From a virus, in IMG/VR virus record IMGVR_UViG_3300009285_003361, positions 1 through 32,726 of that record: a stretch of 32,726 bases of DNA; one strand, written 5' to 3'. Of this stretch, positions 24,817 to 31,618 are shown piece after piece. Below the pieces are notes generated by a model. It had not been told where the DNA came from. It searched no databases and worked only from the letters and a program-made list of their open reading frames with translations. The translations under genes were made by a program, and so were the position numbers. Each line of letters begins with the position of its first letter. Position 1 is the first letter of the stretch.

Positions 24817-25181
24817 TTGGATTCCTCCGATTGGAGGCTGTCAATCGCTTTAATGTCGGATTCGTCGATGATGAGATATTCGTCGCTGGTCGAATCGTCC
24901 TTGATGACGATCTGCTTGTCGGCCCAGTCGTAGAGGCCGTACCACCAAACGACATCGCCGGGCTCGTACCATCCGCGCTCATGACCATACTTCGCGCTGT
25001 TAGTCCGGCGCCCGACCGCGATGACGATCCCGCAGAACAGGTCTCCTTTCGTCGTATTGCGATCCCGTAGGTCCTCGGGGATCAAAATGCTCTTAACTCG
25101 CTCATCGACCGGCTTGCGCTTCACTAGGACCTTGGTCCCGAGCGGCCGCAAACGGGAAATATCCAGCGTTGTTTCGTTCAT
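24807..25181 (-). CDS. GroES-like co-chaperonin (Cpn10)
   Basis: The 124-residue protein follows the Cpn10 pattern: LRPLGTKVLVKRKPVDERVK (residues 11-30) for the first strand and start of the mobile loop, SILIPEDLRD (31-40) carrying the short hydrophobic GroEL-binding triplet, GIVIAVGRR (51-59), YEPGDVVWWY (72-81) and EYLIIDESDIKAI (101-113) for the final strands. Ordinary GroES is about 97 residues, so this protein is about 25 longer, mainly through extra residues between the third and fourth strands and at the C-terminus. T4 gp31 and similar phage co-chaperonins help the host GroEL fold the capsid protein. It starts at ATG 25181 in an ATGA overlap with the terminase stop. Confidence 0.82.
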   Translation of the reverse strand: MNETTLDISRLRPLGTKVLVKRKPVDERVKSILIPEDLRDRNTTKGDLFCGIVIAVGRRTNSAKYGHERGWYEPGDVVWWYGLYDWADKQIVIKDDSTSDEYLIIDESDIKAIDSLQSEESKCR

Positions 25182-27859
25182 GCTCTCCTCACACCATAAC
25201 CGACGCTCGGCCTCGGTATCACAGCGTTCCGATTGATCCCGAAAGCCTCTTTGAATCTCTGCCTGATTGCAGGAGGGGTCTCACGATTTTCGCACAGGAT
25301 GGAAACGCCGATCGCCAAGCTCATCACGGTATCGTCATGCGACCCGGCTTGCGCGCCCATGTCATTGCGAGTGTCAAGATACACAAAGGATTTCAATTCG
25401 TCAAGTGTTTCTTGGCTGTTTATTTTCAGGTCCAGCGCGCGCAAGGAATGAGACAAGGCGTTGACCATCTCGATTTTGGTTTTCCGCGTCGTCTGCCATC
25501 CGTAGACTATACCTCCCGTCTTTTGCTCGCGGACATAGAGATTAGGGTATCCGTTATTTGCCAGCCGGCCGCATGTCGCAGCTCCGTGGTTATTGACTTC
25601 CGGCACGATGTTGCCCCAGTTGTAGTAGGCGCCTAGATCGCCGAGGACATCGGCGAAGTCGTAGGGCGTGATGTGCCCGCGCCACTGGGCGACCTGCTCC
25701 CAGGTGGAAATGTCCAGCACGTCGGCCACGCTATAGTCGCCGTCCGGGATGCCTTCGGCCACGTCCGCGCTGATGACATACCTGCGGTCCTCACGCGGCG
25801 TGTCCCATACTTTCAGCGGGCCGTTCTCGCCCGGCTCGACCTCGATGCGCTTGCCGATGTTGCGGAGCCGCCCGGTCCACTTGGGAGTCCTAGCCGCCTG
25901 GATTTGCTTCTGGATCGCCAGCCAGTCGAACACCATCCGGCCGCTCGTCAGAAACGCATCTTCTTCGCAGTTGTGGACAAGCACACCATTTGCCCCGAAT
26001 GCGTGTAGGATTGGTACGGTCAGATCATATACCTGATCCTCCCCGCAGGGCGTCACCGAAACAACTTTATCAGAATTTCTTATAGCGACTGCCAATCGTC
26101 CGCGCTTTTCCCCAATCCAGCGTTTGCCGCCCCGCTTACGCGCGGAGATAAAACCAATGTTGTCATGGAAGGCGGTTGCATTTCTAGCGGACAGGGCTAA
26201 TTCATTCCCATCATAAAATCCGCTTGGAGCCTTCTTTTTCACCGTGCGGCACAGCCCATTCATGCCGAACCCAGTTAACAGAAGATTCACCGTCTGGAGA
26301 AAATCCGGGTATTTCGAGAAGAACATGACACGCGGTTGATATGGGTAGGCACAGCCATCGCACTCAAACAATGCCGACAAAAATGCAGCGACAACGCTCT
26401 TTGGGCTTCGCAAGATACACTCAGGAACATGGACCTTACGCTGCCAATACTGAATAGTGCCATTGTCTCGGAAACGCGGCTTGATAATGCCGAGTGCGTT
26501 GAAAATTTCCTGTAGCTTGGTGTTCCAGGCCCTCGACTCAATCCCGCCACGCTTGTTGCCGACAATGCGGCTTGCCAGATGGATGTTTAAGGTATCTCTC
26601 ACTACGCCTCTAATATCAGCAATAGTGTCGGTGTCCTTGGCGTCGCAAACGAAAGATAAAATATTCCCATAAAAAGAACCATCGCCCATGAAATATCCGA
26701 GCAGTTTGCCCCAGTCCTCATCAATCAAGATGCTGCTCTTTACGCGGCCCTGATGGTGCCATTCGGCCCGGTAGTATTCTTTTGAGAATGATGCCGGCTG
26801 CAATGTCAACTCGCTCCCAACAGAAAGACCGTCCAGTCGCACGAACCCGGTTTTTGTTGAAAAAAGATGATTAGCCGTGGCCCTGATCTTACGTCCATTC
26901 TCGGTAAGAACCTCAAATATCTGCTTGGTCCCTTGGAACAAGTGCGCTGTTAGCGTGTTTCCATCAACCGAATTTGCCTCAGAGGCATACTTGATCGGGA
27001 CAATACCTTTATCCGTGCAAACAAGAGTGTCGCCCGCTAAACAAGACGGATATTCCTGCGGGAATAAATCGGGGTTGCTCATCTCGCGCAGTTTTTGCCG
27101 GCGCCAGGCCAATTTTTGATCGGGAACCTGATATGCCTCCCGCAATTTGTTTTCGGCCTCATCGAGGACAAGCGGCTTGTCTACCGCTATCTCGAAGTCC
27201 TCAGCTCCCCACCAGGGGAAGAAATGAGCCTTGTACGCGGTTTGGCCGCGCTTGGTTTTGAGCCAGAACTTATGGAACGGCGTCCCGTAACCGTTTGCCG
27301 TGGTCTCGATAACGCGACGGGCGCGATTGACGCAAGCTCCCTCGACCGCCGCGAGGAATGGTTCGCTCGGATAGAACGCCCGCTCGGACAGATGCAAATG
27401 CGTGATGTCGCTGCCGCGCCCTGGGTCCATCGCGCCGGCGGTGATGACCCGAAAATGCGAGTTGGTCTCGGAAAATCGCAGGTGCCCCGCGCTTGCTTCG
27501 GCGACCGGGATATTGATCTTGAGATTTTCGAGCATCCACTTGACGCGGGCAAACAGGACCTTCGCGTCCTCGTCGCGGTGGGAGACCACAACCGCATTGA
27601 CATATTTTTCCAGGATGCAGGCCGACAGAAATTCCGCGCCGATGAGAGACGAGAAACCACGCTTGCGCGGCTTGAGGATTATGTCGCACTGGGTCCGGGC
27701 ACCCCAGTATTCCTGTTGTTCGGGCCGGAAGATAAACGGGACTGACTGCTGGCTGTCGCCGTGGATGATATTGAATGACGACTGGATGAACAAGCTCTTG
27801 TCGGCTTTGATGCGCGCGAACATCGCTGCCGGATCATCAGCTTGCTGGATTTTTGGCAT
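25178..27859 (-). CDS. terminase large subunit interrupted by an intein
   Basis: The gene encodes 893 residues; without the 358-residue intein (273-630) the terminase is 535, a normal size. In the N-extein, ILKPRKRGFSS (61-71) occupies the Walker A position but deviates from the standard P-loop, and HLHLSERAFY (154-163) is the Walker B region. In the C-extein, the nuclease acidic residues are SADVAEG (D699), VPEVNNHG (E754) and SHDDTVMS (D842/D843), as in RNase H-like terminase nucleases. The enzyme cuts and pumps DNA through the portal. ATG 27859 overlaps the SpoVG-like gene by 23 bases. The Walker A deviation is seen in several metagenomic terminases and is not evidence of loss. Confidence 0.93.
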   Translation of the reverse strand: MPKIQQADDPAAMFARIKADKSLFIQSSFNIIHGDSQQSVPFIFRPEQQEYWGARTQCDIILKPRKRGFSSLIGAEFLSACILEKYVNAVVVSHRDEDAKVLFARVKWMLENLKINIPVAEASAGHLRFSETNSHFRVITAGAMDPGRGSDITHLHLSERAFYPSEPFLAAVEGACVNRARRVIETTANGYGTPFHKFWLKTKRGQTAYKAHFFPWWGAEDFEIAVDKPLVLDEAENKLREAYQVPDQKLAWRRQKLREMSNPDLFPQEYPSCLAGDTLVCTDKGIVPIKYASEANSVDGNTLTAHLFQGTKQIFEVLTENGRKIRATANHLFSTKTGFVRLDGLSVGSELTLQPASFSKEYYRAEWHHQGRVKSSILIDEDWGKLLGYFMGDGSFYGNILSFVCDAKDTDTIADIRGVVRDTLNIHLASRIVGNKRGGIESRAWNTKLQEIFNALGIIKPRFRDNGTIQYWQRKVHVPECILRSPKSVVAAFLSALFECDGCAYPYQPRVMFFSKYPDFLQTVNLLLTGFGMNGLCRTVKKKAPSGFYDGNELALSARNATAFHDNIGFISARKRGGKRWIGEKRGRLAVAIRNSDKVVSVTPCGEDQVYDLTVPILHAFGANGVLVHNCEEDAFLTSGRMVFDWLAIQKQIQAARTPKWTGRLRNIGKRIEVEPGENGPLKVWDTPREDRRYVISADVAEGIPDGDYSVADVLDISTWEQVAQWRGHITPYDFADVLGDLGAYYNWGNIVPEVNNHGAATCGRLANNGYPNLYVREQKTGGIVYGWQTTRKTKIEMVNALSHSLRALDLKINSQETLDELKSFVYLDTRNDMGAQAGSHDDTVMSLAIGVSILCENRETPPAIRQRFKEAFGINRNAVIPRPSVGYGVRRA
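25970..27043 (-). other. intein with LAGLIDADG homing endonuclease, inside terminase
   Basis: The splice junctions are clear: EYPS | CLAGDTLV at the N side and VLVHN | CEEDAFL at the C side. The intein is 358 residues. Block A is CLAGDTLVCTDKGIVPI, block B has the T-x-x-H motif in RATANHLF, and the C-terminal blocks read VYDLTVPILHAFGANG and end in H-N with C+1. Two dodecapeptide motifs, LLGYFMGDGSFY (115-126) and FLSALFECDGCAY (221-233), keep both catalytic aspartates, so the homing endonuclease looks intact. It interrupts a conserved terminase motif next to the end of the ATPase domain, a common choice for inteins. Confidence 0.93.
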
Positions 27860-28995: not shown

Positions 28996-29158
28996 GAGCG
29001 CTGTCCTAGTACCCGCATAGAACTTTTTTGCCGATGCGCCGGGCCCCGCTCGGCAAACGCGGGAGGAGGGCATGACCCCTTGGACCCGGCAAGATGATAT
29101 CCGATGCAGCCCGATCAAGTCAAGCAGCCGGCCACCCGGGCGGGTCCCAATCCATGGG

Positions 29159-29465: not shown

Positions 29466-29492
29466 GCCGACTTCATACATTTTTTTGCAAAA

Positions 29493-29521
29493 AGTGTATA
29501 TGATTTCGGTCAATTTATCAA
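29493..29521 (-). promoter_or_regulatory. leftward sigma70-type promoter
   Basis: On the minus strand, TTGATA (29516-29521) and TACACT (29493-29498) are separated by exactly 17 bases. It points at the 37-residue exported peptide gene, with a leader of roughly 20 bases. It is divergent from the rightward promoter at 29987-30015, and the repeat cluster lies between the two. Confidence 0.6.
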
Positions 29522-29549
29522 TTTGACCTTCGTCAATTTCCCAAAAAAC

Positions 29550-29810
29550 GCCCCGGTTTTTGCCCCGGTGCCCCGCCCAACCGGGGCGCAAAACGGGGCA
29601 AAAAAAGTTATATGAGACATTAGCTATTCGCGTCTGCCCCGGTTTTTACTAATATATTATAGAATATAGATATACGCGCACGCGCGCACGCGCGCGCACA
29701 CATGTATCTTTTTCGAAAAGGGGCAAAAAGCGGGGCACCCAATAAATCCCTAAAAAATAACGCGATATCGCAAATCACCTCTGCCCCGCGCCCCGGTTTT
29801 TACCGGGGTT
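29550..29810. repeat. intergenic cluster of GCCCCGGTTTTT direct and inverted repeats with AT-rich tract
   Basis: GCCCCGGTTTTT occurs at 29550-29561, 29636-29647 and 29790-29801. The inverted form GGGGCAAAAA occurs near 29594 and 29720, with more GCCCC and GGGGC blocks between. CCCCGGTTTTTACCGGGG (29791-29808) is a 7-bp hairpin with a four-T loop. Between copies two and three lie an AT-rich run (29648-29676) and an alternating purine-pyrimidine run of GCGCAC/GCGCGC type (29677-29702) that could form Z-DNA. There is no plausible gene in 29466-29986. Iteron-like repeats beside an AT-rich melting tract between divergent promoters suggest an origin of replication or a multi-operator control region. 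Confidence 0.7.
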
Positions 29811-29860
29811 AAAAGCCCGTTTCGTGGCTCATCCTCTATATAGGCTACCCACGCCACTCT

Positions 29861-29877
29861 TACCCCGCGGCGGGGTA
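29861..29877. promoter_or_regulatory. perfect 17-nt palindrome, operator candidate
   Basis: TACCCCGC, a central G, then GCGGGGTA form an uninterrupted palindrome about 110 bases before the rightward promoter. No gene covers it. Size and symmetry fit a dimeric repressor operator. A hairpin with a one-base loop is not favourable in RNA, so binding to duplex DNA is more likely. No second copy was noticed. Confidence 0.45.
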
Positions 29878-29986
29878 TACTCTCCCGCCGGCGTAGAAGG
29901 CTCCCGAAAAACTTCCGAGAGCAAATTGATCGCCTTGATAAATTCCCTCCTGCTCCGCGCGCGATCACCGCCCGAAAAAATAGGAC

Positions 29987-30015
29987 TTGACAAAACCCCG
30001 ATCATCTGTTATACT
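29987..30015 (+). promoter_or_regulatory. near-consensus sigma70 promoter, rightward
   Basis: TTGACA (29987-29992), a 17-base spacer and TATACT (30010-30015) form the strongest promoter in the window. The -35 box is perfect and the -10 box matches four of six including the key positions. Transcription would start near 30022 and read directly into the structured leader at 30024-30102, then the TnpB-family gene and the early-type genes. Confidence 0.85.
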
Positions 30016-30023
30016 TTCGGCAT

Positions 30024-30102
30024 GTCGAGGGTTGAGCGGTTTTTTAATTTTGGGCCTGCCCGGGCACCGCTCCCCTCGACAAGGACGGAAATCCGGGCAG
30101 GC
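30024..30102 (+). ncRNA. 5' leader RNA able to form an H-type pseudoknot
   Basis: Stem 1 pairs GTCGAGGGTTGAGCGG (30024-30039) with CCGCTCCCCTCGAC (30067-30080): 14 pairs with a two-base T-T bulge. Stem 2 pairs GCCTGCCCGG (30054-30063), inside the loop of stem 1, with CCGGGCAGGC (30093-30102): ten perfect pairs. The crossing order gives an H-type pseudoknot with loops of 14, 3 and 12 bases, which are sterically reasonable. Stem 2 is followed by TCTTTTATT, so alone it could act as a terminator. The RNA begins about two bases after the predicted transcription start. It is a regulatory leader, attenuator or small RNA. Confidence 0.6.
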
Positions 30103-30131
30103 TCTTTTATTAAAAATAAAGAAGGAAACTA

Positions 30132-31187
30132 ATGATTCTTGTTTATCGCTACCGCGTCAAAAGTCCGACCAAGATTCTTGACGAACAATCCCGCGCAGTA
30201 AACTATGTTTGGAACTTTTGCAACGAAAGCCAAAAGTCCTGCCTGCGGCTCGGGAAGCGGTGGCTTTCCGGGTTCGATCTTGATTATCTGACGACCGGGA
30301 CCAGCAAGGAGTTGGGCCTTCATTCCGGCACAATCAATTCCGTCTGCGATCAATATGCTAAAAGCCGGAAACAAAAGAAGCGACCTTTTCTCCGTTGGCG
30401 CGGGAAGAAATCTCTGGGTTGGATTCCTTTCAAGGGACGCAATCTCAAATGGAAAGGCGACGCATTCGTATTTGGCGGCAACACGTTCCGAGTTTTCTTC
30501 TCCCGCCCGATTCCCGATGGTGCCATCATCCGTGACGGTTCTAATTTTTCCCAGGACGCTCGCGGGAATTGGTTTCTCAACGTGGTTTTGAGGCTGCCGG
30601 ACAATCCGCGTCGGGGGATCAGAACGTCCGTGGGCATCGACCTCGGGCTCCACGATCTGGCCGCGCTGTCCACGGGAGAGAAGATTGAGAACCCGCGCCA
30701 TCTGGCGAAGCTGGCCGACAAATTGGCGCGGGCTCAGCGTGCCGGGAAGAAAAAACAGGCGACGAATATCCACGCCCATGTCAAGAATGCCCGTCGAGAC
30801 TTTCAGCATAAGCTCTCGACTTGCCTGGTAAAACAATTTGACGCAATCTACGTCGGTAATGTTTCGTCGTCCAAGCTGTCCAAAACCAGATTGGCAAAGT
30901 CCGTACTTGACGCCGGCTGGTCGTCCTTCCGCTCGATGCTGGCCTACAAATGCGATTACGCAGGGGGTCGGTTCTCGGAAGTGAACGAATCGTTTAGCAC
31001 CCAGGTCTGCTCCTCCTGTGGCTGTCTGCCCGAGGGGAGGCCGAAAGGTATCGCGGACCTCGGAAAAAGGCAATGGGACTGCGTGGAGTGTGGGTCGCAT
31101 TTGGATCGTGATCTGAACTCTGCGTTGAATATTCTCCATGCCGGATCGGGACATCGATCCCCTGCTGAGGGAATCCCCGCTCTTTAG
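30132..31187 (+). CDS. tnpB: TnpB-family (IS200/IS605 OrfB-like) RNA-guided nuclease
   Basis: The 351-residue product starts at ATG 30132 behind AAGGA (30122-30126). TnpB features include the N-terminal MILVYRYRVKSPTKILDEQS and AVNYVWNFCNESQK, the RuvC-I motif SVGIDLGLHDLAALSTG (D170), the zinc ribbon CSSCG...CVECG (C293, C296, C317, C320) and the RuvC-III motif SHLDRDLNSALNIL. The usual RuvC-II 'E-D/N-L' after the strand is missing: the site reads IYVGNVSSSKL. In its place a glutamate occurs in FSEVNESFSTQVC (E286) where typical TnpBs have proline. This matches the rearranged-site lineage of TnpB. No TnpA partner is seen, so the element is non-autonomous or domesticated. Confidence 0.9.
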   Translation: MILVYRYRVKSPTKILDEQSRAVNYVWNFCNESQKSCLRLGKRWLSGFDLDYLTTGTSKELGLHSGTINSVCDQYAKSRKQKKRPFLRWRGKKSLGWIPFKGRNLKWKGDAFVFGGNTFRVFFSRPIPDGAIIRDGSNFSQDARGNWFLNVVLRLPDNPRRGIRTSVGIDLGLHDLAALSTGEKIENPRHLAKLADKLARAQRAGKKKQATNIHAHVKNARRDFQHKLSTCLVKQFDAIYVGNVSSSKLSKTRLAKSVLDAGWSSFRSMLAYKCDYAGGRFSEVNESFSTQVCSSCGCLPEGRPKGIADLGKRQWDCVECGSHLDRDLNSALNILHAGSGHRSPAEGIPAL

Positions 31188-31205
31188 GGCGGGGAGGATG
31201 TCAAA
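31140..31205 (+). ncRNA. probable right end and omega-RNA 3' scaffold of the TnpB element
   Basis: The end of the gene and the bases after it carry the hairpin CCCCGC (31175-31180) / GCGGGG (31189-31194), with the stop codon TAG in its loop, followed by AGGATGTCAA (31195-31204). This arrangement, a hairpin over the tnpB stop followed by GGATGTCAA, is typical of IS605-type right ends, where the guide RNA scaffold ends and the guide begins. The 5' end of the RNA is not determined. The element's left end was not recognised. Confidence 0.6.
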
Positions 31206-31243: not shown

Positions 31244-31618
31244 ATGAAAATCGAAAGCAAACTGGCGCACACGCCGGGGCCGTGGACTTCCGAGGTCACG
31301 AATGCCGGGGAGATTGGATCTAAGGACAAGGTGCGCGTTGAGGCCGCTGATGGCCATATTGCCATCATCTGTCGCATCCAGCAGAACAACGCGCGCAACA
31401 CCTTCGGCAAGGAGTTGAACGTCCATCGCAATCTACAGGAGGTCAAAGCCAACGCCCGCCTGATCGCCGCCGCGCCGGACCTGTTGAGTCTGCTGGACAC
31501 TATCGCGGGGGAGTTAGGGGCATGGCGTTGTAGCGGGGACCCGCGTCCGGCGACGTGGGCCGATGTTAGGATTAGACGTATCCATGCCGCCATCGCCAAG
31601 GCCAAAGGGGGTATCTAA
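31244..31618 (+). CDS. phage early-region hypothetical protein
   Basis: ATG 31244 is preceded by GGGAGA, giving 124 residues. The upstream frame to 31214 is not needed. The sequence has the recurring phage pattern HTPGPWTSEV at the start and NARLIAAAPDLLSLLDTI in the second half, found in many small phage proteins of unknown function. It begins about 40 bases after the TnpB element's right end, so this operon may have been interrupted by insertion of the element in its leader. Its stop overlaps the next start. Confidence 0.75.
   Translation: MKIESKLAHTPGPWTSEVTNAGEIGSKDKVRVEAADGHIAIICRIQQNNARNTFGKELNVHRNLQEVKANARLIAAAPDLLSLLDTIAGELGAWRCSGDPRPATWADVRIRRIHAAIAKAKGGI

Follow-up and report, generated by a model that had tools for sequence, protein, structure and literature searches.

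The window, i.e. the whole stretch of DNA that was analysed, is a virus record of 32.7 kb (32,726 nucleotides); its minus strand carries the genes for head, tail and terminase, its plus strand the early genes. An AT-rich region (29470-29900) with CCCCGG/GGGGC repeats and several hairpins separates the late from the early module. On the plus strand, a sigma-70-type promoter is located at 29987-30015. It consists of TTGACA (29987-29992), a 17-nt spacer and TATACT (30010-30015), with a TG right 5′ of the −10 hexamer, and 11 of its 12 positions match, which bears out the promoter proposed in an earlier note on this DNA. When both strands of the window were searched, two sites with at least 11/12 matches were found (29987 on the plus and 9368 on the minus strand), compared to a mean of 0.11 in shuffled windows (n = 100). 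Between 7828 and the end of the window, the site at 29987-30015 is the sole plus-strand promoter with at least 10/12 matches. Judging from the spacing, transcription is expected to start at A30022 (+), 7 nt 3′ of the −10 hexamer. The leader is followed by tnpB (30132-31187, +), and the first phage early gene after tnpB (31244-31618, +) encodes an HTPGPW protein (phrog_1273).

Interlocked stems behind the early promoter

Directly 3′ of the promoter, the plus strand can form an H-type pseudoknot of two stems (S1 and S2). The 5′ arm of S1 (30023-30039) starts at about +2, the distance from the expected start that had been claimed before, and its first 9 nt (30023-30031) pair with 30073-30081. After a TT bulge (30032-30033), 6 further pairs are formed between 30034-30039 and 30067-30072. 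The 5′ arm of S2 (30054-30063) lies inside the loop of S1 and forms 10 perfect base pairs with its 3′ arm (30093-30102), or 12 when the stem is extended to include one G-U pair. The arms are joined by a U-rich loop 1 of 14 nt (TTTTTTAATTTTGG, 30040-30053), a loop 2 of 3 nt (30064-30066) and a loop 3 of 11 nt (30082-30092), the 3′ arm of S1 covering 30067-30081. The earlier note was thus right about the size of S2 and of the first two loops, but S1 has 15 pairs instead of 14 and the third loop 11 nt instead of 12. The U-rich run that it described after the second stem is also present (TCTTTTATT, 30103-30111) and, by its sequence, is a possible termination point, although a simple terminator scan with a loop limit of 8 nt did not list this site.

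Perfect interlocked stems, both 9 bp or longer, were found at two places in the window, the leader and the CCCCGG-rich repeat at 29557-29644 within the AT-rich region. Shuffled windows contained 0.03 such pairs on average, and 3 of the 100 had one. We also used a scored finder that considers knots starting at most 12 nt from a fixed point. The leader scored 56.5, a value reached by none of 20,000 shuffles of the leader. Of 20,000 105-mers drawn at random from the real sequence of the fetched loci, a pool with much GC-rich Burkholderia DNA, six scored at least 54. The two interlocked stems are not due to chance. On the minus strand, a promoter-like TTGACT-18-TATCAT directed towards the late genes is followed by weaker interlocked stems of 9 and 8 bp (29000-29123); scores of at least 44 were reached by 81 of the 20,000 random real segments.

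The best nested-only fold of the leader, a type of folding that is unable to display a pseudoknot, consists of S2 and a local hairpin (−36.3 kcal/mol, z = −2.17). From helix energies and a simple, rough penalty, the pseudoknot was estimated at −46.1 kcal/mol compared to this nested optimum, and the corresponding rough values for a related phage described below are −48.5 and −40.3 kcal/mol. When the chain was folded as it grows, S1 belonged to the optimal nested structure between 30081 and 30101, earlier than the closure of S2.

The same leader in a related phage

The early gene at 31244-31618 had one relative in our search, which led to a second phage (L178) whose gene is 59% identical over the matched part. 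The 15.3-kb contig of this phage (L180) is collinear with the window over terminase, portal (43% identical over the alignment) and the early gene. In the window, the large terminase subunit (25181-27859, −) contains an intein with a LAGLIDADG domain; the L180 terminase has 543 aa compared to 893 aa in the window, and the intein is apparently missing.

L178 has no tnpB at the leader. In its place are two ORFs of 54 and 50 aa, and upstream of these lies the promoter TTGACA-17-TACTAT; a 29-nt stretch around the −35 hexamer and the spacer is 79% identical in the two phages. At the same offset as in the window, the L178 sequence forms a pseudoknot with an S1 of 9 bp, an ATTT bulge and 8 bp, and an S2 of 11 bp. 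S1 would again begin at about +2, counted from the start expected there, and none of 20,000 shuffles of the L178 leader reached the observed score.

Base pairs were counted in a structural alignment made by hand, with the stems anchored by hand, an approach that leans towards structure; the sequence alignment (A2) misplaced the 3′ arms and was unfit for this purpose. In this hand-made alignment, all 26 aligned pairs are canonical in both phages and none is broken. Thirteen pairs are identical, three are changed on one side and ten on both sides, seven of these in S1 and three in S2. Compensatory changes in a homologue, the test that the earlier note had named, were therefore found in 10/26 pairs, in one homologue. 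Since only two homologous leaders were found, a single comparison carries the covariation. In L178, too, loop 1 is rich in U (TTTTTGTTTTTGG), and the run after S2 is poorer in U (TTTGCTTTGG). Loops 2 and 3 measure 3 and 11 nt in the window (sum 14) and 9 and 4 nt in L178 (sum 13). As these sums are alike, one of the two loops could span S1 in each phage; the 4-nt loop 3 of L178 would be too short for the full 17-bp S1 unless the 9-nt loop 2 crosses it.

The same knot is thus found in L178 with largely different letters, and therefore the fold itself appears to matter. Together, the shuffles and the compensated stems in L178 uphold the view that the early transcript starts with a genuine pseudoknot. 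As judged from the two sequences, the element is a conserved phage early-operon leader RNA with a pseudoknot. A 58-aa ORF on the minus strand that starts at 30005 had no match among the PHROGs or in phages; the resemblance to the start of an L178 ORF is explained by the shared promoter DNA.

Furthermore, we searched for additional relatives. An exact 19-mer and an exact 17-mer had no match in the viral contigs, and a 16-mer was found in 11 viral contigs, in none of which the second arm was present. Blastn against phages and plasmids gave no useful homologue. The terminase of the window had no match among the viral contigs, and its portal matched one 9.8-kb piece with a 100% identical portal, whose orientation suggests that it does not reach the leader. 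The L180 portal had no match in phages, and the L180 terminase was less than 30% identical to phage proteins among the matches listed. A portal alignment found nothing in 3 records and one weak partial match in 398 genomes of one phylum. When a sequence-only profile of both leaders was run over 78 loci, only the two leaders themselves were recovered, and the single match of the L178 leader in 16 phage records was at chance level. The whole window had no match in Rfam 15 at the gathering cut-off, and nothing convincing appeared around both leaders at E-values up to 5, in line with the earlier remark that the RNA could not be matched to a known class.

In total, 820 promoter-like sites from 181 sources were scanned, and knots were found at five distinct places. 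The top score was obtained in another phage (L102), where interlocked perfect stems of 13 and 12 bp, with TTTTT further on, lie 3′ of a promoter-like TTGACG-17-TAAATT. The genes 3′ of this knot resemble early genes; we take their ORFs to be HNH, ERF-like and SSB-like, by our own reading of the sequences. L102 was rejected as a homologue, as the U-rich loop 1 is missing and the loops measure 25, 17 and 4 nt; it is a possible analogue only.

The tnpB unit behind the leader

The gene at 30132-31187 encodes a protein of 351 aa that matches NF040570 (guided_TnpB) with 208 bits, compared to a cut-off of 100, and the Pfam families Cas12f1-like_TNB and OrfB_IS605. By these family matches it is a TnpB, a predicted RNA-guided nuclease of the IS200/IS605 type, and it has its own Shine-Dalgarno sequence (GAAGGA). 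A 3′ guide-RNA (reRNA) scaffold and the right end of the unit lie at 31108-31203 (+), with sub-threshold matches to HgcC and sot0042 and with ends of the type GGAATC...GTCAA seen in relatives; by sequence, the relatives share this 3′ hairpin and the GTCAA end. Relatives of this TnpB are found in tnpB units of phages and mostly of Burkholderiales.

That promoter and knot are not phage sequence but form the left end of the tnpB element is very improbable. Elements of this family start after TCAT and, as seen in 32 of 58 non-redundant loci, have a promoter whose −10 lies a few nt 5′ of a leaderless start, and the window contains TCATCTGTT at 30002, which occurs in 0.08% of shuffles. However, the promoter and knot of L178 are continuous without tnpB, so that an exact loss of the unit would be needed, and the idea that TCAT at 30002 is the target motif of tnpB, with the promoter as left end, is contradicted by this phage. 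Moreover, interlocked stems of at least 9 bp were present within 400 nt upstream of tnpB in none of 89 loci. As the knot is missing upstream of the TnpB relatives examined, it belongs to the phage and not to tnpB. Most likely, tnpB is a later occupant of the slot behind the phage leader.

Several features of the TnpB family were observed along the way. The −10-like hexamer lies 5-8 nt 5′ of the tnpB start in the 32 loci (at 6 nt in 16 and at 7 nt in 16), compared to a background of 0.7 per position; because the hexamer is so near to the start, transcripts of tnpB seem to lack a leader. In three loci (L002, L003 and L115), it is instead a 43-aa ORF that is leaderless; its stop overlaps the tnpB start, and we take it to be ribbon-helix-helix-like. 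The tnpB units L016-L095 sit behind TCAT or TCAC, which in many cases is, by our own reading, the start codon of a divergently oriented gene in reverse. A CTCC is located a few bases inside the element in 65 of 76 units; this antisense Shine-Dalgarno sequence could restore translation of the interrupted gene. Among the 62 units with a recognised right end, 28 have CTCC, CCTC or TCCT in the next 18 nt. In an alignment of 15 TnpB rows, the place where the RuvC glutamate would usually be expected reads VGNVS in eight and close variants without E in the others. E283 and E286 near FSEVNES are invariant in all 15 rows.

Possible function and known systems

The conserved 5′ leader RNA probably works as a switch when early gene expression begins. 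More specifically, we propose, with a probability of roughly one half, that its knot works in cis and gates entry into the early operon. S1 would form once its 3′ arm has left the RNA polymerase; S2 would then pair the loop of S1 with the sequence just 3′ of S1 and lock the 3′ arm of S1 in the knot. In this state the arm would be kept off a downstream ribosome-binding site, and early gene expression would change if the knot were opened through protein binding, a ribosome or cleavage. In L178, the Shine-Dalgarno region of the first gene contains a second copy of the S1 5′ arm, so that the 3′ arm of S1 can form 12 perfect base pairs with TACCATGAGGAG at 1668-1679. Of the two partners of this arm, S1 is the stronger (−25.9 compared to −18.3 kcal/mol for the Shine-Dalgarno region). 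A switch is therefore possible in L178, in which the knot would leave the Shine-Dalgarno site free. The earlier note had recognised neither this alternative read-out nor tnpB as the next gene. A second copy of the S1 5′ arm was not found in the window, and the Shine-Dalgarno switch is seen in L178 only; in the window, which lacks this second target, the slot behind the leader is occupied by the tnpB unit, which would be driven by the early promoter of the phage. The gate could be read by ribosomes or by RNA polymerase.

The best rival to the gate is a put-like effect, in which the nascent knot would bind RNA polymerase and render it resistant to pausing and termination within the early operon, with no phage protein involved. 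We give this a minor but real chance. As far as the source describes HK022 putL, the positions are alike, just behind an early promoter, over about 70-80 nt and from +2/+3 onwards, and the structure of the leader is kept though much of its sequence differs. On the other hand, putRNA is described there as side-by-side stem-loops with a triplex, whereas the stems of the leader are interlocked, and Rfam gave no match. Rather unlikely is an attenuator, in which S2 and the U-run would end transcription at about 30111 unless S2 is blocked by a factor or by translation of a leader ORF. The GC-rich S2 lies directly 5′ of TCTTTTATT, and a possible leader ORF of 36 codons (30022-30132, +) extends from the AUG at 30022 to a stop that overlaps the tnpB start (TAATG). 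The corresponding frame of L178 is also open (AUG 1567, 41 codons) and overlaps the first gene in the sequence ATGA, and the two phages have the same distances between AUG and S2 (30 and 71 nt). However, an open frame of this kind is found in about 20% of shuffled window leaders, and the window leader has another open frame besides. For these reasons the leader ORF is a weak, suggestive candidate for a coding sequence, and we dropped it as proof of coding. In addition, the U-run of L178 is poor, and there is no textbook terminator/antiterminator pair because S1 and S2 share no bases. The two-state switch between termination and read-through suggested in the earlier note is not demanded by the structure.

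Alternatively, the stem at +2 and the knot might shield the early mRNA from decay that depends on its 5′ end. The expected position of S1 (+2 in the window, about +2 in L178) and a structure that is better conserved than the sequence agree with such a stabiliser, but a plain hairpin would be enough for it, and the kept S2 and U-rich loop would be left unexplained; we consider it unlikely. Quite improbable is a short RNA that would act in trans, with about 90 nt transcribed from the strong promoter and an end at S2. Promoter and terminator-like end do enclose a compact structured RNA, yet the stem sequences differ between the phages and no seed is kept besides the U-rich loop. Moreover, from 29987 to the end of the window the early genes have no other plus-strand promoter with at least 10/12 matches, and read-through past S2 is therefore needed.

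Compact, backed by covariation and placed at +2 of an early operon, the knot offers a small RNA that is open to testing and may control host takeover, and it can serve as a seed for finding more such RNAs. As the TnpB unit lies directly behind the early leader, its expression is expected at once on infection. Tentatively, the leader might stand for a class of phage early-leader RNAs that is new, with a knot at +2 that gates early transcription or translation and needs no dedicated protein, and counterparts may exist in unrelated phages such as L102.

To our knowledge, few phage early leaders of known mechanism act via RNA structure (HK022 put and T4 gene 32). The open-licence PMC literature on phage early-leader pseudoknots, in the passages covered, dealt with put, T4 gene 32 and general RNA, and these passages did not describe the leader element. 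The IS200/IS605 TnpB elements are alike in the gene directly downstream with its canonical 3′ reRNA scaffold; unlike them, the leader is the phage's own early leader and lies outside the element. The STAXI motif, in the part of its description cited here, is also a pseudoknot RNA and often lies near genes of DNA-handling proteins (PMC2864571), whereas the leader is a single knot without an Rfam match. According to the passages cited for T4 gene 32, its leader pseudoknot nucleates binding of the single-strand-binding protein encoded by its mRNA (PMC3014915). The likeness lies in an H-type pseudoknot in a phage mRNA leader and, in the window, in an A+U-rich stretch that reaches from the knot to the ribosome-binding site; the next gene, however, is tnpB (window) or the 54-aa ORF (L178) and not a single-strand-binding protein. 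HK022 putL lies just behind the early promoter, is about 70 nt long and pairs from nucleotide 3, and the nascent putL and putR RNAs suppress termination with two side-by-side stem-loops and a triplex, as given in the cited part of the source (PMC9378689). On this account, both are structured RNAs of about 70-80 nt acting, in our case presumably, in cis between a phage early promoter and the early genes, but the leader has two interlocked stems and lacks the tandem stem-loop fold of put. Within what these sources describe, HK022 putRNA and the T4 gene 32 leader may be regarded as the closest functional analogues of the leader.
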